From the NCBI GenBank assembly GCA_016458225.1, contig JAEMGR010000014.1, forward strand, positions 1 through 64,000: DNA of 64,000 nt, given 5' to 3'. Origin of the DNA: Myxococcaceae bacterium JPH2. GTDB taxonomy: Bacteria > Myxococcota > Myxococcia > Myxococcales > Myxococcaceae. Below are positions 32,042-43,221 of this stretch, piece by piece. The notes beneath the pieces are model-generated. The model saw only the letters and a program-made list of their open reading frames with translations, was not told the DNA's origin and made no database searches. How positions within the stretch are numbered: position 1 is the stretch's first letter; each line of letters begins with the position of its first letter. A program made the position numbers and the translations under genes.

Positions 32042-33082
32042 ATGCGGCTGGGCATCAAGGCGGACAACCTGCTGGAGCGCGTGGCGGACTTCCTCAACCT
32101 CGCCCCCCAGCCCCTGGCCCATGCCTTCTTCGGGATGATGGCCTCGCGCACGCTGATGGCGGGCGCGCGGCTGGGCATCTACGCGGCGCTGGCGGACGGC
32201 CCGGCCACGCCGGATGCGCTGGCCACCCGACTGAAGCTCTCCACCGAGGGCACCCGCGCCCTGCTCGATGCGCTGGTCGCGTGCGAGGTGGTGGAGCGCG
32301 TGCGCGGTCGCTACAAGCTGGCGCCGCGCGCGAGCCGCTGGTTGGATCCGCGCTCGCCGCAGTCCATCACCGCCTTCCTCGAGTTCAACTACGCCCAGTG
32401 GGACTGGTGGGGTCAGCTCGAGGACGTGGTGCGGCGCGGCCAGTCGGTCAACATCCACGACTTCGCGCCAGATGACCCGCGCTGGCGCGACTACATCCAC
32501 GCGATGTACCAGCTCGCGCGGCTGGCGGCCCCGGAGGTCGTCTCGGCCATTCCGCTGCCGCGCGGCGCGCGCCACGTGCTGGACCTGGGCGGCGCGCATG
32601 GCTGGTTCGCCGCCGAGCTGTGCCGCAAGCACAAAGGCCTGAAGGCCACCGTGGTGGACCTGGAGGGCAGCGCGCGCGTGGGGCGGGACATCATCGCCAA
32701 CGCGGGGCTGGCCCACCTCGTCTCTCACCGCGAGGGCAACCTGCTCACCCACGACCTGGGCGGTCCGCATGACGGCGTGCTGCTGTTCCAGGTGGTGCAC
32801 CACCTGACGCCCGAGCAGAACGTGGCCCTGCTGCGGCGGATCCGCACCGCGCTCTCACCCAAGGGGACGCTGGCGGTGCTGGAGTACCTGCGCGAGGACG
32901 CGGAGACGCCGCAGGGCTCCGCGCCCCTCATCGGCCTGCACTACTGCCTGACCTCGGGCGCGGCGGCCTACACCCCCGCCGAGGTGGAAGGCTTCTTGGA
33001 CGACGCGGGTTTCGACATCCACCAGAGTCGGCCCATCCGCCACCTGCCCCTCCAGACGCTCCTCATCGCCCGTCCGGCCTGA
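32042..33082 (+). CDS. SAM-dependent O-methyltransferase (winged-helix plus Rossmann)
   Basis: A 346-residue protein like the acetylserotonin/polyketide O-methyltransferase family. The N-terminal helical dimerisation and winged-helix part (A-R-L-G-I-Y-A-A-L, T-R-A-L-L-D-A-L) precedes a Rossmann domain with V-L-D-L-G-G-A-H-G-W near residue 180, V-V-D-L-E near 205 and L-F-Q-V-V-H-H-L near 245. The His in the last motif is probably the catalytic base. The substrate is unknown; it may act on a lipid or natural product. It precedes the UbiA-HAD gene on the same strand, 86 bp apart. Confidence 0.88.
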   Translation: MRLGIKADNLLERVADFLNLAPQPLAHAFFGMMASRTLMAGARLGIYAALADGPATPDALATRLKLSTEGTRALLDALVACEVVERVRGRYKLAPRASRWLDPRSPQSITAFLEFNYAQWDWWGQLEDVVRRGQSVNIHDFAPDDPRWRDYIHAMYQLARLAAPEVVSAIPLPRGARHVLDLGGAHGWFAAELCRKHKGLKATVVDLEGSARVGRDIIANAGLAHLVSHREGNLLTHDLGGPHDGVLLFQVVHHLTPEQNVALLRRIRTALSPKGTLAVLEYLREDAETPQGSAPLIGLHYCLTSGAAAYTPAEVEGFLDDAGFDIHQSRPIRHLPLQTLLIARPA

Positions 33083-33168
33083 GCGGCCCCTCCCCCTGCG
33101 GGCGATCCCCGCCGAGTGGGTAGGCCGTGCTCCGGCCCCACCTCTCGCGCTACCCTGCCCCTCCGCCC

Positions 33169-34614
33169 ATGCTGCCCGAGGCCCCCCTTCCCCCATCCGA
33201 GGCCGTGCCGCTCGCCGTCGACCTGGACGGCACGCTGGTGCTCACGGACACGCTCCACGAGAACCTGCTGGTGCTGTTCAAGCGGGCGCCCTGGCTGCTG
33301 CTGCTCGCGCCGCTCTGGATGCTCCGGGGCAAGGCCTTCTTCAAGGCCGAGGTCGCTCGCCGGGCCGCGCTGGACGCCGCCGTGCTGCCGTACCACGAGC
33401 CCCTGCTGGCCTTCCTCCAGGAGGAGCGGGCGCACGGCCGGCGGCTCGTGCTGGCCACGGCGGCGGACCGTCGCATCGCCGACGCGGTGGCCGCGCACCT
33501 GGGCCTCTTCGACGAGGTGCACGCCAGCGACGGGCAAGTGAACCTGTCCGGTGAGCGCAAGCTGGCCCGGCTGAAGGAAGCGGTGGGCACGTTCGACTAC
33601 GCGGGCAACGACGCGGTGGACCTGCCGCTGTGGCGCGAGTCCCGGCAGGTGGTGGTGGCGAACGCCTCCACGAATGTGCTGCGGCGCGCGCGGGAGTTGG
33701 GCCGCCCCGTGCACCGCGTCTTCGAGCGCCCCGCCACCCGCGCGCGCACCTGGGTGAAGGCGCTGCGCGTGCACCAGTGGGCGAAGAACGCGCTCGTGTT
33801 CGTCCCGCTCCTGGCCGCGCACAAGGCCCAGCACCCGCGCATGGTCCTGGAGTCGGTGCTGGCGTTCTTCGCCTTCAGCCTGTGCGCCTCCAGCGTGTAC
33901 GTGCTCAATGACTTGCTGGACCTGGAGTCGGACCGACGACATCCGACCAAGAAGGCGCGGCCATTCGCGGCCGGCACGCTGTCCGTTCGCGCCGGGGCGA
34001 TGATGGCGCCGGTGCTGCTCGCGGCGGGCGCGGCCCTGGCATTGGCGCTGCTGCCTCCCGCGTTCGCGGCGCTCCTGGGCGTGTACTACGGCCTGACGCT
34101 CGCGTACTCGGTGCGGCTCAAGCAGGTGGTGATGCTGGACGTGCTGGTGCTCGCGGGGCTCTACACGGTGCGCATCTTCGGCGGCTCGCTGGCGGTGGGC
34201 GTGCCCACGTCGAGCTGGCTGCTCATGTTCAGCACCTTCCTCTTCCTGTCGCTCGCGCTGGTGAAGCGGCTGAGCGAGGTGCGGCGGCTGCGGCTGGCCA
34301 ACGAGTCCGCGGCGCACGGGCGCGGCTATCTGGCGCAGGACTACGAGCAGCTCGCGAGCCTGGGCGCGGCGGCGGGACAGGTGTCCGTGCTGGTGCTCGC
34401 GCTCTACATCACCAGCAAGGAAGTCACCGCGCTGTACACCCACCCCGAGCGCCTGTGGCTGCTCTGCCCGGTGATGCTGTACTGGGTGGGCCGGGTGTGG
34501 GTGCTCGCGCATCGCGGACAGGTGAACGAGGACCCGCTCCTCTTCGCCCTGCGCGACAAGGTGAGCTACGCCGTCGGAGTCGTCGCCGCGCTGGTGCTGT
34601 GGGCCGCCACATGA
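33169..34614 (+). CDS. HAD-UbiA fusion, phosphoribosyl-polyprenyl synthase-like
   Basis: A 481-residue membrane protein. Residues ~1-190 are a HAD phosphatase: D-L-D-G-T near residue 17, L-A-T-A-A-D-R and Y-A-G-N-D-A-V-D. The rest is a UbiA prenyltransferase with N-D-L-L-D-L-E-S-D (first Asp-rich motif), Y-S-V-R-L-K-Q-x-x-x-x-D (second), and about eight membrane helices. The arrangement resembles decaprenyl-phosphate phosphoribosyltransferase fused to its phosphatase; next come DprE1- and DprE2-like genes. It could make and dephosphorylate polyprenyl-phospho-phosphoribose. ATG 33169 is preferred over an in-frame GTG at 33127, but no Shine-Dalgarno decides. Confidence 0.82.
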   Translation: MLPEAPLPPSEAVPLAVDLDGTLVLTDTLHENLLVLFKRAPWLLLLAPLWMLRGKAFFKAEVARRAALDAAVLPYHEPLLAFLQEERAHGRRLVLATAADRRIADAVAAHLGLFDEVHASDGQVNLSGERKLARLKEAVGTFDYAGNDAVDLPLWRESRQVVVANASTNVLRRARELGRPVHRVFERPATRARTWVKALRVHQWAKNALVFVPLLAAHKAQHPRMVLESVLAFFAFSLCASSVYVLNDLLDLESDRRHPTKKARPFAAGTLSVRAGAMMAPVLLAAGAALALALLPPAFAALLGVYYGLTLAYSVRLKQVVMLDVLVLAGLYTVRIFGGSLAVGVPTSSWLLMFSTFLFLSLALVKRLSEVRRLRLANESAAHGRGYLAQDYEQLASLGAAAGQVSVLVLALYITSKEVTALYTHPERLWLLCPVMLYWVGRVWVLAHRGQVNEDPLLFALRDKVSYAVGVVAALVLWAAT

Positions 34615-34627
34615 GGATGCAGGAGCG

Positions 34628-36022
34628 ATGAAGTCACCGCAGTCCTGGGGGAGATTCCCCCGAGTCGCGCAAGAGACCCGTGCCCTCACGTGGGGCTCGG
34701 GCGCGCTGCCGTCCGCGCCGGGGCCGCTGCTGCCGCACGGGCTGGGCCGCAGCTACGGGGACTCGTGCCTCAACGCGGACGGCACGCTGCTGCTCACCTC
34801 CGCGCTGGACCGCCTCATCGACTTCGACCCGGCCACGGGCGTGCTGCGCTGCGAGGCGGGCGTCACGTTGGACACGGTGCTGCGGCTGGTGGCGCCGCGC
34901 GGCTGGTTCCTCCCGGTGACGCCGGGCACCAAGTACGTGACGGTGGGCGGGGCCATCGCCAACGACGTACATGGCAAGAACCACCATCGCGGCGGCACCT
35001 TCGGGCGGTACGTGCGGAGCTTCGAGCTCCTGCGTTCGGATGGCACCCGCCGCGTCTGCGCACCGGACGCGCATCCAGATTGGTACGGCGCCACCATCGG
35101 CGGGCTGGGGCTCACGGGCCTCATCACCTGGGCCGAGGTGCAGCTCGTGCCCATCCGGAACCCGTACATCCTCCAGGAGACGGTGCCCTGCGAGAACCTG
35201 GACGCGTTCCTCGACGTGGCCCGGGCCTCGGAAGCGGACTACGAGTTCACCATGGCGTGGGTGGACTGCCTGGCCCGAGGCCGCAAGCTGGGCCGGGGCC
35301 TCTTGTTCCGAGGCAACTTCGCGCCGCCGCAGTTCGACGGGCTGCCGCTCGCCAAGAGCCACCTGTCGCACGGCTCGGGGCTCGCGGTACCGGTGGACAT
35401 GCCGGCGTTCTGCCTCAACCGGTTGTCCGTGTCCGCGTTCAACTGGCTCTACTACCGCCGCCAGCGCGGCCGTCCTCGGCAGCGGCTCACGCACTACGAC
35501 CCGTTCTTCTATCCGCTGGATGCCATCTACGGCTGGAACCGCATCTACGGCGCGCGGGGCTTCCTCCAGTTCCAGTGCGTGGTGCCCTACTCCACCGCGC
35601 GCGACGCCTTGAGAGAGATTCTCGAGCGCAGCTCGCGCGGCGGCGTGCCCAGCTTCCTGTCCGTGCTCAAGACGTTCGGAGACATTCCGTCCCCGGGCTG
35701 GCTGTCCTTCCCTCGCCAGGGCGTGACGCTGGCCATGGACTTCGCCAACCGCGGCGAGAAGACGTGGCGGCTGGTGGAGGACCTGGACCGACTGACGCGC
35801 GAGGCGGGCGGCGCGGTGTATCCCGCGAAGGACGCGCGCATGAGCCCGGAGAGCTTCGCGGCGTACTTCCCTCGGCGCGAGCAGTTCCTGCCGTACATCG
35901 ACCCTGCGTTCTCATCCTCCTTCTGGCGGCGGGTGAATCCTCCCGCCACGCCCTCCCTGCCCATGCTGGAAGGCAGGGCCGACGGCGCCACGCCGCCCGT
36001 GTCGCTGCTGGCCATCCGCTGA
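34628..36022 (+). CDS. FAD-dependent DprE1-like oxidase
   Basis: A 464-residue flavoprotein of the FAD-linked oxidase (PCMH) type. The FAD motifs H-G-L-G-R-S-Y-G-D near residue 38 and V-G-G-A-I-A-N-D-V-H-G-K-N-H-H near 110, and the C-terminal Y-P-A-K-D-A-R, match decaprenylphospho-ribose 2'-oxidase (DprE1). The substrate-site Lys of DprE1 aligns with the Lys of that C-terminal motif. The Cys that benzothiazinones attack in Mycobacterium is Ala here, as far as I can align by eye. It likely oxidises C2 of a polyprenyl-phosphoribose, with the reductase encoded 22 bp downstream. Start ATG at 34628 follows AGGAGCG. Confidence 0.85.
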   Translation: MKSPQSWGRFPRVAQETRALTWGSGALPSAPGPLLPHGLGRSYGDSCLNADGTLLLTSALDRLIDFDPATGVLRCEAGVTLDTVLRLVAPRGWFLPVTPGTKYVTVGGAIANDVHGKNHHRGGTFGRYVRSFELLRSDGTRRVCAPDAHPDWYGATIGGLGLTGLITWAEVQLVPIRNPYILQETVPCENLDAFLDVARASEADYEFTMAWVDCLARGRKLGRGLLFRGNFAPPQFDGLPLAKSHLSHGSGLAVPVDMPAFCLNRLSVSAFNWLYYRRQRGRPRQRLTHYDPFFYPLDAIYGWNRIYGARGFLQFQCVVPYSTARDALREILERSSRGGVPSFLSVLKTFGDIPSPGWLSFPRQGVTLAMDFANRGEKTWRLVEDLDRLTREAGGAVYPAKDARMSPESFAAYFPRREQFLPYIDPAFSSSFWRRVNPPATPSLPMLEGRADGATPPVSLLAIR

Positions 36023-36044
36023 TTCCCCGGGCACAACGTCACCT

Positions 36045-36782
36045 ATGAAGAAAGTCCTCATCCTCGGCGCCACGAGCGCCATCGCCCAGGCCACGGTGCG
36101 GCTGCTCGCCGCGCGCGGAGCCTCGCTGTACCTGGTGGGCCGCAACGCCCAGAACCTGGAGGCCGTGGCGAAGGATGCGGCCACGCGCGGCGCGGCGAAG
36201 GTCGAGTCGCGGGCCTTGGACCTCGACGACTGTGGCGCGCACGAGGCGCTGGTGGAGCAGGCCATGCAGGCGTTGGGTGGACTCGACGGCGCGGTGATTG
36301 CGCACGGCGTGCTGGGGGACCAGGACGCGAGCCAGCGTTCGTGGGCGGCGGCCGAGGCCGTCCTGCGCACGAACTTCCTGAGCGCCGCGTCGCTGCTGAC
36401 GTCACTGGCCAACCGCTTCGAGGCGCAGAAGGCCGGCACGCTGGTGGTGATTTCGTCGGTGGCGGGAGACCGCGGGCGGCAGAGCAACTACGTGTACGGC
36501 GCGTCGAAGGGCGCCCTGAGCGTGTTCCTCCAGGGCCTGCGCAATCGACTGGCGAAGTCCAACGTGGCGGTGGTGACGGTGAAGCCTGGCTTCGTGGACA
36601 CGCCGATGACGGCGCACGTCCCGAAGAACAAGCTGTTCGCCTCGCCGGAGAAGGTGGCGCGCGGGCTGCTCGCCGCGGCGGATGGGCGCAAGAACGAGGT
36701 CTACGTCCCCGGCTTCTGGGCGCTCATCATGCTCATCATCCGCTCCATCCCCGAGCCCATCTTCAAGCGGCTGAAACTGTAG
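36045..36782 (+). CDS. SDR reductase, DprE2-like
   Basis: A 245-residue short-chain dehydrogenase. The nucleotide motif G-A-T-S-A-I-A-Q is near residue 8; N-F-L-S near 110; catalytic Ser in V-I-S-S-V near 130; Y-V-Y-G-A-S-K provides Tyr and Lys near 147-151. The C-terminal hydrophobic stretch (W-A-L-I-M-L-I-I) with a basic end resembles DprE2, which reduces the 2-keto intermediate to arabinose. With the DprE1-like oxidase and the UbiA-HAD fusion it completes an epimerisation set. Its stop is only 4 bp from the stop of the opposing lipoprotein gene. Confidence 0.83.
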   Translation: MKKVLILGATSAIAQATVRLLAARGASLYLVGRNAQNLEAVAKDAATRGAAKVESRALDLDDCGAHEALVEQAMQALGGLDGAVIAHGVLGDQDASQRSWAAAEAVLRTNFLSAASLLTSLANRFEAQKAGTLVVISSVAGDRGRQSNYVYGASKGALSVFLQGLRNRLAKSNVAVVTVKPGFVDTPMTAHVPKNKLFASPEKVARGLLAAADGRKNEVYVPGFWALIMLIIRSIPEPIFKRLKL

Positions 36783-36786
36783 TCCG

Positions 36787-37821
36787 TCAGCGCGACGCAG
36801 TCTCCAGTGGGGGCACGTCGCGGCCTTCACCGAAGCCGAGCGTCCAGAACTCGGGGCGCTCGGGGTCGCGGGCCGCGAGTCGCCAGAGCAGGTGCTTGGC
36901 CTCATCCTGGCCGTCGAGCGCGAGCGCGAACGTGCCGTAGTGCATCGCGACGGACACCTGGGCGTGCAGCACATGGTGGGCCCGGAGCGCGTCCTCGGGC
37001 CCCATGTGCACCGCGTGCAGGACGCGCGGCCGGAACGCGCCGATGGGCAGCACCGCCAGCCGCATGGGGCCGAAGCGCGCGGAGATGTCCTCGAAGTGGG
37101 GACCGAAGCCGGTGTCGCCCGCGAAGAGCACGGGGCCTCCCGAGGTGCTCAGCACGTAGCCCGCCCACAGCGTGCCGCGCCCATCCGTGAGCCCGCGATT
37201 CGAGCGGTGCTGCGCGGGCACGGACGTCACCGTGAAGCCGGGGCCCACCGTGCTCGCTTGCCACCAGTCGAGTTCCTCCACGTGCGCGAAGCCCTCGGCG
37301 TCCAGCAGCGCCTTGTTGCCCAGGCCCACGATGAAGCGCGGGTGGTGCGCGGCCTCCAGTCTCCGCAGCGTGGGGAGGTCCAGGTGGTCATAGTGGTTGT
37401 GGCTCACCACGACCACGTCGATGGGCGGCAGGTCCTCGAAGCGGATGCCGGGCGGGCGGCGGCGCTTGGGGCCGAGCCACGACACGGGGCTCGGGCGCTC
37501 CGAGTAGATGGGGTCCGTCAGCACGTTGAGGCCGTCCGCCTGGAGCAGCATCGTCGCGTGGTTGATGAACGTCACGCGCAGCGCGCCCGAGCCCACGCGC
37601 GTCGGAGGCTTGGGGCCCGGAGGGAACTCCGTGGAGGGCTGCCACAGGCCACGCTTCTCCTTCAGCGCCGCCAGCACCAGGGCCACGGGATTCGGGCTCG
37701 AGGCATCACCGGGGTTGTGGAAGTGCGAGCCATCGAAGTGGTCCGTCACGGGCCCCTGGTGCACGGTCCCAGCGAAGCATCCCGACAGCAGCGCGAGGCC
37801 CAGCGTGAGAGTCCAGCGCAT
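36787..37821 (-). CDS. NAPE-PLD-like metallo-beta-lactamase-fold lipoprotein
   Basis: A 344-residue protein. A lipobox (L-L-S-G-C) lies near residue 15. The metal site H-N-H-Y-D-H-L-D is at about residue 145, with D-T-G-F-G later and a second His in V-H-M-G; an early F-I-N-H-A-T-M-L-L matches the NAPE-PLD/UlaG group. Such enzymes are phosphodiesterases or phospholipases D; the substrate is not determined here. The ATG overlaps the TGA of the gene before it (TGATG), so it is the coupled last gene of the minus-strand operon led by the type III PKS. Confidence 0.88.
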   Translation of the reverse strand: MRWTLTLGLALLSGCFAGTVHQGPVTDHFDGSHFHNPGDASSPNPVALVLAALKEKRGLWQPSTEFPPGPKPPTRVGSGALRVTFINHATMLLQADGLNVLTDPIYSERPSPVSWLGPKRRRPPGIRFEDLPPIDVVVVSHNHYDHLDLPTLRRLEAAHHPRFIVGLGNKALLDAEGFAHVEELDWWQASTVGPGFTVTSVPAQHRSNRGLTDGRGTLWAGYVLSTSGGPVLFAGDTGFGPHFEDISARFGPMRLAVLPIGAFRPRVLHAVHMGPEDALRAHHVLHAQVSVAMHYGTFALALDGQDEAKHLLWRLAARDPERPEFWTLGFGEGRDVPPLETASR

Positions 37822-38444
37822 CACTTGATGATGATGGTCCAGGTGCATTCGAAGGGAACTCCATCCACGGTGGGCAGCTCGTAGCGAGAGGACTCGACGC
37901 TCGCGAGCGCCTGGGCCAGCAGGTCCGGGGGCAGCGTCGCCTCTTCCACCACGCATTGCCGAGGGGCGCCGCCGCGCACGAGCCGACAGGCCACGCGAAC
38001 GTGGTGCTTGCGGCCCTCGCGCCAGCGGCGGAACGCGTCCTGGAAGACGGGGTCATCGGGAGGACCGCCGCGGACGCGCTGGGGCTCGCGCACGTGCTGC
38101 GAGAGGAAGGCACAGGCGTCCTTCACCTGTCCGTCACACGCCTTGGACATGAGCGACAGCGCGCGCAGCCGAGCGTCTTCGGAAGTTTCGGCCACCCACA
38201 GCGTGAGCGCGCGGTCGAAGCAGACGCGGGCCTTGGCGACGGTGCACTCCTCGGTCTGCACGGGCTCGAGGTTCGAGGCGAAGGCGCCGAGCGGGGCTGG
38301 CCGCATCGCGTCCACCGTGACTCGCGCCGGGTTGCTCCGCCGGGCCGCGCAGCCCAGTCCCAGACACAGACACACCACGAACAGCCACGACCGCGAAGAC
38401 AGGCCCCAGTGCATGGCGCGCATCGTAGCCGGTCGGAGCCTCAC
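37821..38444 (-). CDS. lipoprotein with a TonB-C-like Cys-containing domain
   Basis: A 207-residue lipoprotein; lipobox G-L-G-C is near residue 32. The mature part has helices with Cys pairs (A-R-V-C-F-D-R-A, S-K-A-C-D-G-Q-V-K-D-A-C) followed by V-R-V-A-C-R-L-V-R-G-G-A-P-R-Q-C-V-V-E-E and S-S-R-Y-E-L, with a V-D-G-V-P-F. This resembles the TonB-C-like segments of the two lipoproteins near 2.8-5.0 kb and suggests common ancestry. GTG at 38444 is preceded by ACGGAG; ATGs at 38423 and 38414 are alternatives. It lies 18 bp below the reductase gene in the PKS operon. Function unknown. Confidence 0.72.
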   Translation of the reverse strand: MRLRPATMRAMHWGLSSRSWLFVVCLCLGLGCAARRSNPARVTVDAMRPAPLGAFASNLEPVQTEECTVAKARVCFDRALTLWVAETSEDARLRALSLMSKACDGQVKDACAFLSQHVREPQRVRGGPPDDPVFQDAFRRWREGRKHHVRVACRLVRGGAPRQCVVEEATLPPDLLAQALASVESSRYELPTVDGVPFECTWTIIIK

Positions 38445-38462: not shown

Positions 38463-39560
38463 TCAGCCCACCACGGTGGCGAGGATGCGCTCGAACAACC
38501 AGGGGGCTCGGCCCAGGGCGCGCACCACGGGACGTCGGAGCCACGGCCGCCGCGCCAGGAGCAGCAACGCGCGCGTCGTCCAGGCGTACTTGCGAAACAC
38601 CTGCTGGAAGCAGCGCGCATAGGGCTGCAGCGCGCCGCGCGTCGCACCATGCACCAGCGCATCCGGCAACACGTTGCCCAGCGACTCCGCACACGCGAAC
38701 GCGATGGACAGCCCTTCGCCCGTCAACGCATCCACGTAGCCCGCCGCATCCCCCACCAGCGCGAAGCGGTCCGCCACCGGCGTGCGCGCCACCCGTGCCA
38801 ATGGCCCTGCCCCACGCACCTTCGAGTCCGGCTCCACGCCCGACAAGCGCTCACTCAAGGTCGGGAAGCGCGCGAGCAACGCGTCGAAGCCCACCTTCCC
38901 ATCCACTGCGCCGTCCTCCCAGAGGAACGCCAGCCCCACGCGCTCCGTACCCGCCGGCGTCACGTAGGCCTCCACACCCGAGGCGAAGTGCACCTCCACG
39001 TAGGCCGTCCACGGTCGGATGCGGAAGTGCCGCCTCAACCCGAAACGCCGCGAGCCCTCCGCGCTCAGCTCCAACCCCTCGGCCTTGCGCAGCGGCGAGC
39101 CCAGCCCATCCGCCGCCACCAGCACCCGCGCGTCCACCGGCCCCGCCGCCGTCTCCAACGACACGCCCTGCACCGTGCGCTGATACCCGAGCACCTGCGC
39201 GCGCTCGCGCAGCTCCACGCCCACCTCGCGCGCCCGCGTCACCAACGCCGACGCCAGCGCCACCCGCCGCACGCCCAGCCCTCCCGGCGCGGGCAGCAGC
39301 CCCTCCGCCGAGCTGCCATCCTCCTGCACGTAGCGGATGCCCATGAACGGCGCGCTCTCGCGCAGGTCCAGGTGCGTCAGCGCCCCCAATCGCTCCAGCG
39401 CCCCCAACCCCGAGGGCATGAGCCCCTCGCCACAGGCCTTGTCCGCGGGCACCGTCCCCCGCTCCAACACCACCGTGTTCAGCCCGCGCCGCGTGGCGGT
39501 GATGGCCACGGCGAGCCCCGCGGGCCCACCGCCCACCACGGCCACGTCGTAGGGCTTCAC
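38463..39560 (-). CDS. geranylgeranyl-reductase-like FAD-dependent oxidoreductase
   Basis: A 365-residue flavoprotein. The Rossmann motif V-A-V-V-G-G-G-P-A-G-L is near residue 6, then V-L-E-R, A-C-G-E-G-L-M near 44, and the second FAD motif A-L-V-G-D-A-A-G-Y-V-D near 280. This is the geranylgeranyl reductase/monooxygenase superfamily. Its ATG overlaps the FAAL stop (ATGA), so it belongs to the PKS operon and probably tailors the product by reduction or hydroxylation. The C terminus ends with an Arg/Leu-rich helix that could touch the membrane. Reaction and substrate are not shown by sequence. Confidence 0.88.
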   Translation of the reverse strand: MKPYDVAVVGGGPAGLAVAITATRRGLNTVVLERGTVPADKACGEGLMPSGLGALERLGALTHLDLRESAPFMGIRYVQEDGSSAEGLLPAPGGLGVRRVALASALVTRAREVGVELRERAQVLGYQRTVQGVSLETAAGPVDARVLVAADGLGSPLRKAEGLELSAEGSRRFGLRRHFRIRPWTAYVEVHFASGVEAYVTPAGTERVGLAFLWEDGAVDGKVGFDALLARFPTLSERLSGVEPDSKVRGAGPLARVARTPVADRFALVGDAAGYVDALTGEGLSIAFACAESLGNVLPDALVHGATRGALQPYARCFQQVFRKYAWTTRALLLLARRPWLRRPVVRALGRAPWLFERILATVVG

Positions 39561-41311
39561 GGATCCTGCTCCGCCCGCACCATCGCCAGCGCGCTCTTCG
39601 CCATCTCCACCATCATCCCCACCGTCCCCATCCGCTTGGGCGCGGACAGCTCACCCGCGAGGAAGCGCCGCAGCGACTCGGCGCGCCGCAGCTTCCCGCT
39701 CGACGTGCGCGGCAGGGTCCCGGGCTCCAACATCCGCACCGTGTGCGGTCGCACGCCGGTGGCGGCCACCACGGCCGCGCGAATCTGCTCCTCCACGGCC
39801 TCGCTCGGCTCCGACCCCGCGCGCTCGGCCAGGATGAGCAGCGCCTCGTCCTCGCTGCCCTCGGGCGTGAAGCCCAGCGCCACCGCGCAGCCCGTGCGCA
39901 CGCCGTCCACCGCGCTCAGCGGCTCCTCGAAGGCCTGGGGCGCGTGGTTCGCGCCTCGGATGATGACCACGTCCTTGGCTCGGCCCGTCAGGTACAGCTC
40001 GCCGTCCTCGAGGAAGCCCAGGTCTCCTGTGTCCAGCCAGCCGTCCGCCGTGAGCGTGCGCGCCGTCGCCGCCGCGTCCTCGAAGTAGCCCGCCATCACC
40101 GACGGCCCCCGCGCGAAGACCCGTCCCGCGCGCCCATCCGGCAGCACGCCGCCGTCACCGTCGCGGATCTCCACCTCGAAGCCCGCCACGGGACTCCCCA
40201 CGCTGACGAGTCCTCGTGCGCCCGCCTCCACCCGCCCCTCTCGCGCCAGCACACCGGGGTCCACGTTCAGCACGCGCGGGCCCCGGCCCTCGGGCGGGAA
40301 CGTGACGGCGAGCGACGCCTCGGACAGCCCATACACCGGCCGCATGGAGCGGGCCGAGAAGCCCCAGCGCTCGAAGCGCTCGGCGAAGCGGCGCAGCGTG
40401 TCCGCCGACACGGGCTCCGCGCCGTTGAGCGCGTGGCGCCAGCCCGAGAGGTCCATGCCCTCCATCTCCGCGTCCTTCACGCGCTTGAGACACAACCCAT
40501 AGGCGAAGTTGGGCGCGGGAGAGATGAAGCCCCGGTGACGCGACAACGCGCGCAGCCACAGCGCGGGCCGCGCGAGGAACACCTCGGGCGGCAACAACAC
40601 CAGGTTGCCCGGGTAGTACAGCGCCGACAGCAGACAGCCGATGAGCCCCATGTCGTGGTACAGCGGCAGCCAGCTCACCCCCACCGGAGGCGTCCCCGGC
40701 GGCAGGGGCATGGCCAACTCCAGCGCGGCCACCTGGGCCATGAGCGCGTGCTGCGTCAGCGCCACCGGCTTGGGGTCCACCGTCGAGCCCGACGAGAACT
40801 GGACGAGGCCCAGGGACTCGGGACGCACGGCCACCTCGCGCTCGTCCTCGCCCCGCAGCACCTCGTCCACCGTGAGGCACCCGCTCCGAGGCCGCGCCTT
40901 CTCCACGCTCGGCCCCAAGAGCAAACGCACCCGCGAGTCCGTCAGCACCAGGCACGCGCCCGTCACCTGGAGCATGCGCGAGGTGGCCCGGTGGTACTCC
41001 TCCAGCCGCCCCAGCCGCACCGGCGGATAGAGCGGCACCGGCACCGCGCCCGCGAGCAGGGAGCCGAAGTACGCATCCATGAAGGCCAGCGACGTCGGCA
41101 GCAGGAGCGCCACGCGCTCGCCCTCCTTCACCCCCAGCCGCCCCAACCCCGCGGCGACCCGGCGCGCGCGGCGGTACACCTCCGCCCAGGACACCCGGCT
41201 CTCGCGCTCGGCCGAGTCCACGAAGGTCAACCCCAGCGACGTCCTGGCCGCCGCGGCCAGCGCCGCGTTCACCGTGGGGAACCTCGGCTCGGGCAGCGCG
41301 GGGCCTTTCAT
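39557..41311 (-). CDS. fatty acyl-AMP ligase (FAAL-type adenylating enzyme)
   Basis: A 584-residue AMP-forming ligase. The P-loop-like S-S-G-S-T-V-D-P-K-P is near residue 175; W-L-P-L-Y-H-D-M-G-L-I-G near 215 is a FAAL hallmark; Y-G-L-S-E-A near 305, D-T-G-D-L near 425, R-G-A-N-H-A-P-Q and the final P-R-T-S-S-G-K-L-R-R near 545 complete the set. FAALs activate fatty acids and load them on acyl carrier proteins; an ACP gene overlaps this start by 4 bp. It probably supplies the starter for the type III PKS encoded upstream. FACL-like CoA ligation is less likely but not excluded. Confidence 0.9.
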   Translation of the reverse strand: MKGPALPEPRFPTVNAALAAAARTSLGLTFVDSAERESRVSWAEVYRRARRVAAGLGRLGVKEGERVALLLPTSLAFMDAYFGSLLAGAVPVPLYPPVRLGRLEEYHRATSRMLQVTGACLVLTDSRVRLLLGPSVEKARPRSGCLTVDEVLRGEDEREVAVRPESLGLVQFSSGSTVDPKPVALTQHALMAQVAALELAMPLPPGTPPVGVSWLPLYHDMGLIGCLLSALYYPGNLVLLPPEVFLARPALWLRALSRHRGFISPAPNFAYGLCLKRVKDAEMEGMDLSGWRHALNGAEPVSADTLRRFAERFERWGFSARSMRPVYGLSEASLAVTFPPEGRGPRVLNVDPGVLAREGRVEAGARGLVSVGSPVAGFEVEIRDGDGGVLPDGRAGRVFARGPSVMAGYFEDAAATARTLTADGWLDTGDLGFLEDGELYLTGRAKDVVIIRGANHAPQAFEEPLSAVDGVRTGCAVALGFTPEGSEDEALLILAERAGSEPSEAVEEQIRAAVVAATGVRPHTVRMLEPGTLPRTSSGKLRRAESLRRFLAGELSAPKRMGTVGMMVEMAKSALAMVRAEQDP

Positions 41312-41580
41312 GGACGGACCTCCGTCGTGCTTTGCGCGGCGCGCTCCGCCACCAACCGCATCAGGTCCTCCACCGTCTTCACGCCCTCCGCGTCCTCCTC
41401 CGACAGCCGCACGCGGAAGCGATTCTCCAAGCCCACCGCCAGCACCGTCAGGCCCAGGCTGTCCAACTGAAGGTCCATCAAGAGGTCATGCCGCGGCTCC
41501 ACCTCGCCCTTCCACTCCAGCTCCTCGAGGGCGATGCGGCGTATCTCCGCCAGCACCTGCTGCGACACGGGCTCAACCAC
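41308..41580 (-). CDS. acyl carrier protein
   Basis: A 90-residue acyl carrier protein. The phosphopantetheine site is L-D-S-L-G-L-T near residue 39, and a C-terminal helical T-V-E-D-L-M-R-L-V follows. I set the start at GTG 41580, preceded by GGAGG inside the end of the methyltransferase gene and overlapping its stop by 8 nt (GTGGTTGA); an in-frame ATG at 41628 would give 106 residues but without a Shine-Dalgarno. It should carry the FAAL-activated acyl chain to the type III PKS, an inference from operon order. Confidence 0.88.
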   Translation of the reverse strand: MVEPVSQQVLAEIRRIALEELEWKGEVEPRHDLLMDLQLDSLGLTVLAVGLENRFRVRLSEEDAEGVKTVEDLMRLVAERAAQSTTEVRP

Positions 41581-42148
41581 GACGAACCTCCGGAATGAAG
41601 CGGGGGCGCCGGGAGAATTCTCGCGCATACGCGGCGCCCAGCGCCTGCTCCTCCGCGCGGATGCGCACGAGGAGCAGCAACAGGTTGCCCAGGGAAAACA
41701 CCAGGGCCGTGACCCAGGCCCCGTGAATCAACGGCACACACAACAACTCCAGCACCACCGCCACGTAGTTGGGATGGCGCAAGTAGCGGTACGGCCCACC
41801 CGTCACCGGCGGCAGGTCCGGCACCACGATGATGCGCGAGTTCCACCGCTCGCCCAGCGTGGCGATGGCCCAGTAGCGCAGCGCCTGCGCCGCCACCGCG
41901 CCCGCGAGCGCCACCACGCTCGCCCAGCCGAGGAAGGGCCGCTCCCCGAGCACCACCTCCACCGCGCACGCCACCAGGAAGCAGGTGTGGAAGGCCACCA
42001 TCACCCGGTAGTGACCCTGGCCGGTCTCCACCCCGCCGCGCGCGAACGCCCGCGCCGCGTTGCGCTTCGAGAGCACCAGCTCCACGACGCGCTCCGCCAC
42101 GAGCAGCGTCAGGAACCCCAGATAGAGCCAGGTCGTCGATATCACCAT
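41573..42148 (-). CDS. isoprenylcysteine carboxyl methyltransferase (ICMT)-family membrane protein
   Basis: A 191-residue membrane protein with about five helices. The ICMT motif R-Y-L-R-H-P-N-Y is near residue 125, and R-I-R-A-E-E-Q-A-L near 165 is the SAM-binding/catalytic C terminus. In bacteria such small ICMT proteins are often beside type III PKS genes and O-methylate the alkylpyrone or resorcinol product. The gene overlaps the PKS stop by 7 nt and the ACP start by 8 nt. Its start at 42148 lies within the PKS gene end, consistent with translational coupling. Confidence 0.88.
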   Translation of the reverse strand: MVISTTWLYLGFLTLLVAERVVELVLSKRNAARAFARGGVETGQGHYRVMVAFHTCFLVACAVEVVLGERPFLGWASVVALAGAVAAQALRYWAIATLGERWNSRIIVVPDLPPVTGGPYRYLRHPNYVAVVLELLCVPLIHGAWVTALVFSLGNLLLLLVRIRAEEQALGAAYAREFSRRPRFIPEVRRG

Positions 42149-43221
42149 CGCAGCAGCACCATTTCCGAACAGAAGCCGGGCCCCATCGCCATCACCACGC
42201 CCCAGTCCCCGGGCCGCGCCCCAGCCGTGCGCAGCGTTTCATCCAGCACGAAGAGCACGGACGCACTGGACAGGTTGCCCACCTCTCGCAGCGACGCCCA
42301 GGAACGCTCCAGCGTCCCAGGCGCCAGCTCCAGCGACGTCTCGAACGCCTCCAACACCTTGGGCCCGCCCGTGTGCGCCACCCAGTGCCGCACGTCAGAG
42401 CGCTTCAGGCCGTGCGCCGCGAGGAAGTCATCCACGTTGCCCCGGATGCGGTCCTTCACGAGCTGCGGCACCTTGGCGGACAGCACCACCTTGAAGCCCG
42501 AGTCCACCACGTCCCAACCCATGACGCGCTCGGTGTCTGGGTAGAAGACGGAGCGCGAGGCCACCACGCGCGGCCCTGTCCTCCCCGCGCGCGCGCCCCG
42601 CAGCACCGCGCACGCGGCGCCGTCGCCAAACAATCCGGACGCGATGATGTTGGGGATGGACAGGTCCTCGCGCTGCAACGTCAGCGAGCACAACTCCGTG
42701 GCGACGACGAGCGCGGTGTGCTCTGGGAACGCGCGAAGGTAATCCGCCGCGCGCGCCAGGCCCGCCGCGCCCGCCACGCAGCCCAGGCCGAAGATGGGGG
42801 TGCGCTTGACGTCGCTGCGCAGCGGCAGCCGGTTGACCAGCCGCGCATCGATGCTCGGCGTGGCAATGCCCGTCACCGTGACGAAGAAGACGTGGTCCAC
42901 CTCGGTGGGCTTCAAGCCGACGGCGTCCAGCGCGCGCCGCACCACCTCCTCGCTCAGGTCCGTGGCGACTCGAATCCACGCGTCGTTGCGCTGCTGAAAG
43001 GTGACGAGTGGCCGGTATTCCTCCAACGGCAGCGCCAGATGGCGGCCCCCCACCTGCACCGCGCGGTGCAGCTCCTCCAGCCGCTCGAGGTTGTAGTGGC
43101 GCGTGGCCCACACCTCGCGGAACGTGGCGATGAGCTGCTCCTGCGTGGCGTAGTGCGGAGGAAGTGCCCGCCCCACGGCATGGACGAAGGGCGCGGTGTC
43201 CTGGCCGGATGCACTGTGCAT
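42142..43221 (-). CDS. type III polyketide synthase
   Basis: A 359-residue chalcone/stilbene-synthase superfamily protein. The catalytic triad is visible: Cys in F-G-L-G-C-V-A-G near residue 145, His in W-V-A-H-T-G-G near 285, and Asn in V-G-N-L-S-S-A-S near 320. Bacterial members make alkylpyrones or alkylresorcinols from fatty acyl starters and malonyl-CoA. It is the first gene of a tightly overlapped minus-strand operon. The ATG at 43221 follows AGGA at 8 nt. Two identical 10-bp repeats sit upstream. The chemistry of the product is not deducible from sequence. Confidence 0.95.
   Translation of the reverse strand: MHSASGQDTAPFVHAVGRALPPHYATQEQLIATFREVWATRHYNLERLEELHRAVQVGGRHLALPLEEYRPLVTFQQRNDAWIRVATDLSEEVVRRALDAVGLKPTEVDHVFFVTVTGIATPSIDARLVNRLPLRSDVKRTPIFGLGCVAGAAGLARAADYLRAFPEHTALVVATELCSLTLQREDLSIPNIIASGLFGDGAACAVLRGARAGRTGPRVVASRSVFYPDTERVMGWDVVDSGFKVVLSAKVPQLVKDRIRGNVDDFLAAHGLKRSDVRHWVAHTGGPKVLEAFETSLELAPGTLERSWASLREVGNLSSASVLFVLDETLRTAGARPGDWGVVMAMGPGFCSEMVLLRW

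Follow-up and report, generated by a model that had tools for sequence, protein, structure and literature searches.

A HAD-UbiA, DprE1-like and DprE2-like gene module of the Myxococcaceae as a predicted source of lipid-linked D-arabinofuranose

Could a myxobacterium make a polyprenyl-linked D-arabinose of the mycobacterial kind, and if so, which molecule would receive the sugar? The question is raised by three adjacent genes in the window analysed here, which is a stretch of 64,000 nucleotides from contig JAEMGR010000014.1 of Myxococcaceae bacterium JPH2. In its gene map, the plus strand at positions 33169–36782 encodes a HAD-UbiA fusion, followed by an FAD oxidase that resembles DprE1 and an SDR reductase that resembles DprE2.

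Locus anatomy and the three proteins

The features of the locus are as follows.

32042–33082, plus strand: O-methyltransferase P0004 (PF00891 and a dimerisation domain), upstream of the HAD-UbiA gene
33169 (ATG) to 34614 (stop), plus strand: HAD-UbiA fusion P0001, 481 aa, with an N-terminal HAD domain and a C-terminal domain of the UbiA-type polyprenyl-phosphate phosphoribosyltransferases
34628–36022, plus strand: P0002, 464 aa, DprE1-like, predicted FAD-dependent polyprenyl-phosphate-ribose 2-oxidase
36045–36782, plus strand: P0003, 245 aa, DprE2-like SDR, predicted reductase of the 2-keto intermediate
36787–37956, minus strand: metallo-beta-lactamase-fold gene, convergent, 4 bp beyond the DprE2 stop

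The gaps within the run are 13 bp (UbiA/DprE1) and 22 bp (DprE1/DprE2). Coordinates, domains and recurring order all agree with the one-strand run that the initial annotation had described: the order UbiA-E1-E2 is also found at loci of Myxococcus, Corallococcus, Hyalangium and Aquabacterium, and because several genera share it, the arrangement is far beyond chance. The metallo-beta-lactamase-fold gene, whose position is not kept in most relatives, is the downstream border and lies outside the pathway. A GTG at 33127 is a possible alternative start of the fusion gene; the alignments of relatives begin at ATG 33169.

P0001 carries the Pfam domains PF12710 (HAD, 5.7e-9) and PF01040 (UbiA, 1.2e-19), and NCBIfam NF006088 spans the fusion over residues 10–481 with 650 bits against a cut-off of 351. 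Its closest PDB structure is the mycobacterial DPPR synthase 8j8j (2.5e-28), which is also the top fold match of the predicted model (pLDDT 90.6, TMt 0.84), and the HAD part of that model resembles SerB-type phosphatases. Catalytic motifs lie at residues 18 and 146 (HAD) and 247 (UbiA, NDxxDxxxDxxHPxK); D18, D20 and D151 of the HAD domain and N247, D248, D251, D255, H258 and K261 of the UbiA domain are invariant in 18 aligned sequences, and the UbiA of Citreicoccus inhibens is 98% identical to P0001, in confirmation that the DNA is myxobacterial. By architecture, score and motifs, P0001 would be a polyprenyl phosphoribose synthase of the HAD-UbiA type (NF006088; ORF15 of Kelly et al. 2024).

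P0002 contains PF01565 (FAD_binding_4, 5.2e-20) and is closest among solved structures to DprE1 4aut (5.8e-77, residues 34–422). Because it scored 369 bits with the DprE1 equivalog NF053785, under the cut-off of 500, we named it DprE1-like and placed it outside the equivalog. Residues Y43, H115, K117, Q314, Q316 and K401 are invariant in 82 aligned loci and W211 is present in 81 of them; we take the M. tuberculosis DprE1 equivalents to be Tyr60, His132, Lys134, Trp230 (for W211), Gln334, Gln336 and Lys418. All aligned DprE1-like proteins (82 loci) have Ala at the benzothiazinone-reactive Cys site of mycobacterial DprE1. A second DprE1 paralogue is located in an NRPS/PKS cluster.

For P0003 (PF00106, adh_short, 3.6e-38), the top PDB match was the decaprenylphosphoryl-2-keto-erythro-pentose reductase DprE2 (21gq_C, 1.4e-31). 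The DprE2 equivalog NF053786 gave 199 bits, under its cut-off of 250, hence the name DprE2-like, and PRK07102 gave 321 bits, above its cut-off of 267. The SDR catalytic residues S138, Y151 and K155 are invariant in 80 loci.

Predicted donor chemistry and its distribution

We consider it highly probable that the three genes form a donor-making module for D-arabinofuranose; homology and active-site residues speak for it, and so do gene order and the gene content of relatives. From these we infer substrates and stereochemistry as follows. The UbiA domain would transfer phosphoribose from PRPP to polyprenyl phosphate, the fused HAD domain would remove the 5'-phosphate to leave polyprenyl-phosphate-ribose, the DprE1-like enzyme would oxidise C2 with FAD to a 2-keto sugar, and the DprE2-like enzyme would reduce the keto group with NAD(P)H and inversion to polyprenyl-phosphate-D-arabinofuranose. 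This is the sequence of phosphoribosyl transfer, dephosphorylation and C2 epimerisation first put forward for the locus, and as a prediction it is well supported. Moreover, for each of the three proteins the nearest solved structure is an enzyme of the mycobacterial pathway, and the fold of the fusion agrees. The E1 and E2 scores below the equivalog cut-offs were counted against the pathway.

The same four reaction types occur in the mycobacterial DPA pathway (Rv3806c UbiA, Rv3807c, DprE1 and DprE2). The phosphatase there is Rv3807c whereas here it is the fused HAD domain, and the reactive Cys of DprE1 is here Ala; there is also no sign of arabinogalactan. Kelly et al. (2024) showed that a HAD-UbiA fusion makes polyprenyl-phosphate-ribofuranose and also described homologues of DprE1/E2 at loci for glycans that contain Araf (PMC11127046), a precedent that supports the donor pathway. 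Their three-component pentofuranose systems share the N-terminal HAD and C-terminal UbiA fusion (Citrobacter youngae ORF15 PPPRS), but a MATE flippase and a GT136 GT-C enzyme are linked there and neither adjoins the genes here; the C. youngae O1 and O2 polymers bear ribose or xylose, in contrast to the arabinose predicted here (PMC11127046).

The module might also make a polyprenyl-phosphate-pentose other than the arabinose form, with the E1/E2 pair yielding for example the keto sugar itself or another epimer, so that the glycan would bear ribose, xylose or a modified pentose. We consider this quite unlikely. Related systems do give ribofuranose or xylofuranose according to which auxiliary epimerase they have, but in the xylose system one GalE-like SDR stands in place of an E1/E2 pair (PMC11127046). 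Orthologous DprE1 is missing from three Archangium-type genomes (G002, G003 and G005) in which UbiA and DprE2 are present, an observation that fits a different product and that we also counted against the donor pathway; on the other side, the active-site surroundings of DprE1 are conserved, and among solved structures the SDR matches DprE2 best.

Distribution favours D-arabinofuranose donor synthesis. A relative of each enzyme was found in about 90 of the 96 genomes of the family, and the three-gene module is a conserved feature of it. The gene order, kept in several genera and also in Proteobacteria, supports the pathway, as does the retention of all three genes in two genomes (G004 and G007) where they are dispersed over three loci. 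E1 and E2 are jointly absent from five genomes, a shared loss that also supports it; the accompanying Fisher test is purely descriptive, since it takes related genomes as independent and scores weak E2 matches as absent. The residues needed for catalysis in HAD, UbiA, DprE1 and DprE2 are kept over several phyla, and several copies from Proteobacteria and other lineages have GT-C-like or GtrA genes adjoining the same core, in further support. DprE1-like proteins at 41–53% were found in 63 plasmid records, mostly of rhizobia, and a single unannotated phage record had a partial UbiA match only.

Acceptor, flippase and transferase

A flippase and at least one GT-C enzyme, encoded elsewhere, would use the arabinose lipid in the periplasm. 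In the gene map of the window, no flippase (MATE or GtrA) and no GT-C enzyme was recognised near the three genes, which we counted against the donor pathway. A genome search covering GtrA (MATE was covered in the window only) found one GtrA-type protein, a fused one, at C3:345642. For GT-C enzymes, the genome search proposed in the initial annotation, run for the PMT_2 type, found 12 candidates elsewhere. With a composite query over 20 genomes, several of these were widespread and were also found in two genomes without E1/E2 (G043 and G048), and hence none could be singled out as the partner. A Salinisphaera GT-C-like protein (c58) used as query had no match in the genome, which was likewise counted against the pathway.

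Other candidate partners were rejected. A 612-aa GT-C-like gene lies within a few bp 3' of UbiA in the Archangium-type genome G007; its relatives elsewhere are only 26–36% identical and none is in the window's genome, so that it is probably a local association. The five LPG_synthase_TM proteins of the genome have merely weak similarity to the Aquabacterium gene adjoining UbiA, and were dismissed as flippases. GH183/DUF4185 endo-D-arabinanase is not an obligate partner: 35 of 96 genomes have it, and this one lacks it.

Flipping and acceptor are predictions, the acceptor from the gene context of two relatives. In these (G044 and G051) the HAD-UbiA gene stands among polysaccharide genes (ABC exporter, GT4 enzymes or rhamnose genes), which supports the donor pathway and hints at LPS O-antigen or a related polymer. 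As acceptor we rank an exported polysaccharide, be it LPS O-antigen or another, as the likeliest, and we put the chances of a polysaccharide at about even. Decoration of a surface polymer, as initially suggested, is weakly supported: the context in the two relatives speaks for it, and the window has no linked transferase or flippase.

Type IV pili drive myxobacterial movement, and the arabinose lipid might instead serve protein glycosylation, for example of type IV pilin, a reading that competes with the preferred one on the acceptor alone; pilin is a possible acceptor, although we regard this as unlikely. In P. paraeruginosa, a D-Araf pathway modifies type IV pilin via the GT-C enzyme TfpW (PMC12369383, PMC11841053), but no pilin gene was recognised close to the module and the polysaccharide neighbours of HAD-UbiA in the two relatives argue against a protein acceptor.

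Jointly with the upstream O-methyltransferase and neighbouring FAAL, ACP and type III PKS genes, the three genes might also feed a secondary metabolite or lipid and not an envelope glycan. In Myxococcus, Hyalangium and Archangium loci an O-methyltransferase gene precedes UbiA on the same strand, and at two loci (L039 and L041) it adjoins DprE1 alone; FAAL, ACP and KAS/type III PKS genes are near the module in several genomes, and the NRPS/PKS location of the second DprE1 paralogue fits as well. We consider this highly improbable, since the PKS genes of the window are oriented opposite, the module is near-universal in the family although clusters for secondary metabolites tend to be patchy, and GT-C-like or GtrA genes adjoin several proteobacterial copies. 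Moreover, the O-methyltransferase was not found in Corallococcus loci, which rules it out as an obligate partner and makes it a frequent but dispensable neighbour.

Precedents and meaning for myxobacteria

The predicted donor chemistry is not new. The parallel with Azorhizobium nodulation genes drawn in the initial annotation is correct: noeC, noeH and noeO of A. caulinodans, compared with mycobacterial genes in PMC2443382, are at the level of the gene set a Gram-negative counterpart proposed for a D-arabinose precursor, but they lie in a nod operon with noeP and their target is Nod factors (PMC2443382). Pseudomonas paraeruginosa PSPA7_6245-6251 is likewise a Gram-negative D-Araf glycan pathway containing a UbiA gene, but it lies on a genomic island, its pilin acceptor and TfpW are identified (PMC12369383), and its phosphatase is separate whereas the HAD is fused here (PMC11127046). 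Pilin arabinosylation and the systems of Kelly et al. (2024), neither of which the initial annotation mentioned, reduce the novelty. Our literature search found no report of D-arabinofuranose in myxobacteria, which was also counted against the donor pathway.

What the locus would add is a predicted near-universal D-arabinose lipid pathway, apparently undescribed so far, in model social predators including Myxococcus xanthus, a group in which single-gene deletions are easy. The DprE1-like proteins are natural variants with Ala where benzothiazinones attack covalently. The M. xanthus endo-D-arabinanase, whose activity has been shown (PMC10115798), gains an alternative reading from the pathway. 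It is conceivable, if fairly unlikely, that myxobacteria make a family-core D-arabinofuranose envelope polymer of their own, which in some of them GH183 endo-D-arabinanases may remodel, beyond any use against prey.

Three adjacent genes and a predicted polyprenyl-phosphate-arabinose pathway

The initial annotation had described a fused HAD-UbiA gene, an oxidase and a reductase in one strand run at 33169-36782, and this was borne out on the forward strand, together with the gaps of 13 bp (fusion to DprE1-like gene) and 22 bp (DprE1-like to DprE2-like gene).

32042-33082, O-methyltransferase gene, upstream of the fusion
33169-34614, forward strand, HAD-UbiA fusion (Pfam HAD and UbiA)
34628-36022, forward strand, DprE1-like gene (Pfam FAD_binding_4)
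36045-36782, forward strand, DprE2-like gene (Pfam adh_short)

An alternative GTG at 33127 would make the fusion 14 residues longer, and the ATG at 33169 is the point where relatives begin to align among 18 HAD-UbiA sequences. The source genome has 8.99 Mb, and the nearest named relative is Citreicoccus inhibens, whose fusion protein is 98% identical.

The fusion scored 650 bits against the NCBIfam HAD-UbiA family NF006088 (cut-off 351), with the whole length covered. Its UbiA half was closest to decaprenyl-phosphate phosphoribosyltransferase 8j8j, in the PDB sequence comparison (2.5e-28) and also in fold, with a target-based TM-score of 0.84 for a predicted model of pLDDT 90.6, and a fold search with the model matched the HAD half to structures of the phosphoserine-phosphatase type. 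The oxidase matched DprE1 (4aut, 5.8e-77) and the SDR matched DprE2 (21gq_C, 1.4e-31), other SDRs being far behind; because their scores lie below the NCBI equivalog cut-offs (369 bits versus 500 for DprE1 and 199 versus 250 for DprE2), we use the names DprE1-like and DprE2-like.

Active sites were well preserved. The fusion carries DLDGT at 18, GNDAVD at 146 and NDLLDLESDRRHPTKKARPFAAG at 247, and the aspartates of both domains, along with the His and Lys of UbiA, were invariant in all 18 aligned sequences, which were drawn from Myxococcota, Proteobacteria and Acidobacteriota. Tyr43, His115, Lys117, Gln314, Gln316 and Lys401 of the DprE1-like protein were found at 82 of 82 loci and Trp211 at 81 of 82, while Ser138, Tyr151 and Lys155 of the DprE2-like protein were invariant across 80 loci. 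Position 369 of the oxidase is Ala at all 82 loci (myxobacteria, Proteobacteria, Acidobacteriota) and aligns in 4aut with the mycobacterial DprE1 Cys targeted by benzothiazinones, which we take to be Cys387 in M. tuberculosis numbering. The PDB matches, these invariant residues and retention across the family support the proposed donor pathway as a prediction, and the three genes very probably encode it.

Distribution and neighbours in the family

Among 96 family genomes, DprE1-like proteins (E <= 1e-40) and UbiA-type relatives (E <= 1e-20) were each found in 90 and DprE2-like proteins (E <= 1e-35) in 87, counts that pool orthologues with distant homologues, the UbiA of distant genera being mostly unfused and 33-37% identical. 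Loci from Myxococcus, Corallococcus, Hyalangium, Citreicoccus and Archangium-type genomes showed the contiguous arrangement with the fusion. G004 and G007 retain all three genes, each at its own locus, and the DprE1-like and DprE2-like genes are jointly absent from G043, G048 and three small genomes (G084-G086); this retention when dispersed and joint absence point to a single pathway, not to genes that are neighbours by chance. Partial sets also occur: G002, G003 and G005 have adjacent UbiA and DprE2 without an orthologous DprE1, G045 and G081 have both Dpr-like genes and no UbiA match, and G051 has the fusion and no DprE1 match. UbiA and DprE2 likewise stay adjacent, and the orthologous DprE1 is lost, at L085 and L087 (Archangium lansinium and A. 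violaceum); away from these loci, as in G002, G003 and G005, there is only a DprE1-like protein at 37-38%. A locus from a record labelled 'Comamonas sp. KCTC 72670' (L080, BNCN01000012.1) is syntenic with Myxococcus and 80% identical, and the Comamonas label looks wrong.

The O-methyltransferase is a dispensable but frequent neighbour: its gene also precedes UbiA at the loci of Myxococcus, Hyalangium and Archangium, adjoins DprE1 without the other two genes in L039 and L041, and was not found in Corallococcus loci. A convergent metallo-beta-lactamase-fold gene 3' of the module has no conserved place among relatives. At 38463-43221 on the reverse strand, one run encodes an FAD oxidoreductase, a FAAL-like AMP-binding ligase, an ACP-like protein, an ICMT-type methyltransferase and a type III polyketide synthase, and similar genes run near the UbiA/DprE1 locus in several relatives. 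Two Archangium-type loci (L039, 11167-12969; L161, 4622-6418) have genes for a membrane protein, which in L161 is chemoreceptor-like (MCPsignal), and for ACP, KAS III-like and FAAL-like proteins 3' of DprE1 or UbiA and on the same strand, as though inserted in the operon. A second DprE1-like gene of the source genome (C16:179132-180406; L005 9169-10524, reverse strand), 43% identical to the oxidase, is situated at the border of an NRPS/PKS-type cluster with no adjoining UbiA or DprE2, and may encode an oxidase that tailors a natural product.

Precedents, export and acceptor

This kind of pathway is already known from precedents in Citrobacter, P. paraeruginosa and Azorhizobium. A Citrobacter youngae HAD-UbiA fusion was shown to make polyprenyl-P-ribofuranose, in a study that also put forward a MATE flippase, established GT136 and noted homologues of DprE1/E2 where Araf-containing glycans are encoded (Kelly et al. 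2024, PMC11127046); P. paraeruginosa pilin carries a D-Araf decoration (PMC12369383); and the suggested Azorhizobium parallel holds, noeC, noeH and noeO having been likened to mycobacterial genes in 2008 (PMC2443382). The literature searched, which covered few subscription journals, gave no report of the pathway in myxobacteria. Early composition studies reportedly found arabinose and an O-methylated pentose in M. xanthus LPS. An active GH183 (DUF4185) endo-D-arabinanase of M. xanthus was read by its authors in terms of mycobacterial arabinan and predation (PMC10115798). GH183 is patchy, occurring in 35 of the 96 genomes (e.g. L181-L186) and absent from the source genome. It is therefore ruled out as a fixed partner of the donor genes, which are near-universal.

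The module would require a flippase and a transferase encoded outside the window, and neither was found within its 64 kb. A genome-wide GT-C search, as the initial annotation proposed, gave 12 PMT_2-type candidates but none in the window; the genome also encodes one GtrA-type and five LPG_synthase_TM proteins. Elsewhere, an LPG_synthase_TM protein precedes UbiA in Aquabacterium, a GtrA protein follows it in Methylopila, a weakly recognised GT-C-like gene lies near GtrA/UbiA in some alphaproteobacteria, and a polytopic protein without Pfam match, which we judge GT-C-like, follows DprE2 in Salinisphaera and Endozoicomonas. A GT-C-like gene closely 3' of the fusion gene in G007 is not conserved among relatives and is probably a local association.

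At L144 of G044, a region of less than 10 kb around the fusion gene also encodes an ABC-2 permease, a GT4-type double glycosyltransferase and a weakly matching PMT_2 protein, and in G051 (L151) the fusion gene is flanked by a GT4-type double glycosyltransferase and RmlA-/RmlB-type rhamnose genes. The L144 permease is 61% identical to one at about 91.5 kb on contig C17 of the source genome, and the L151 rhamnose genes are 80-87% identical to C17 genes about 16-19 kb beyond it, in a cluster that we infer to be of O-antigen type and that also encodes GT4 enzymes and a weakly matching PMT_2-type protein. Because the fusion genes of these relatives stand beside counterparts of the C17 cluster, our leading guess for the acceptor is the O-antigen of LPS or a related polymer that is exported. 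Decoration of a surface polymer with the module's arabinose is plausible, and the finding draws its value from the conservation of the genes in a genetically tractable group and from the simplicity of the deletion tests.
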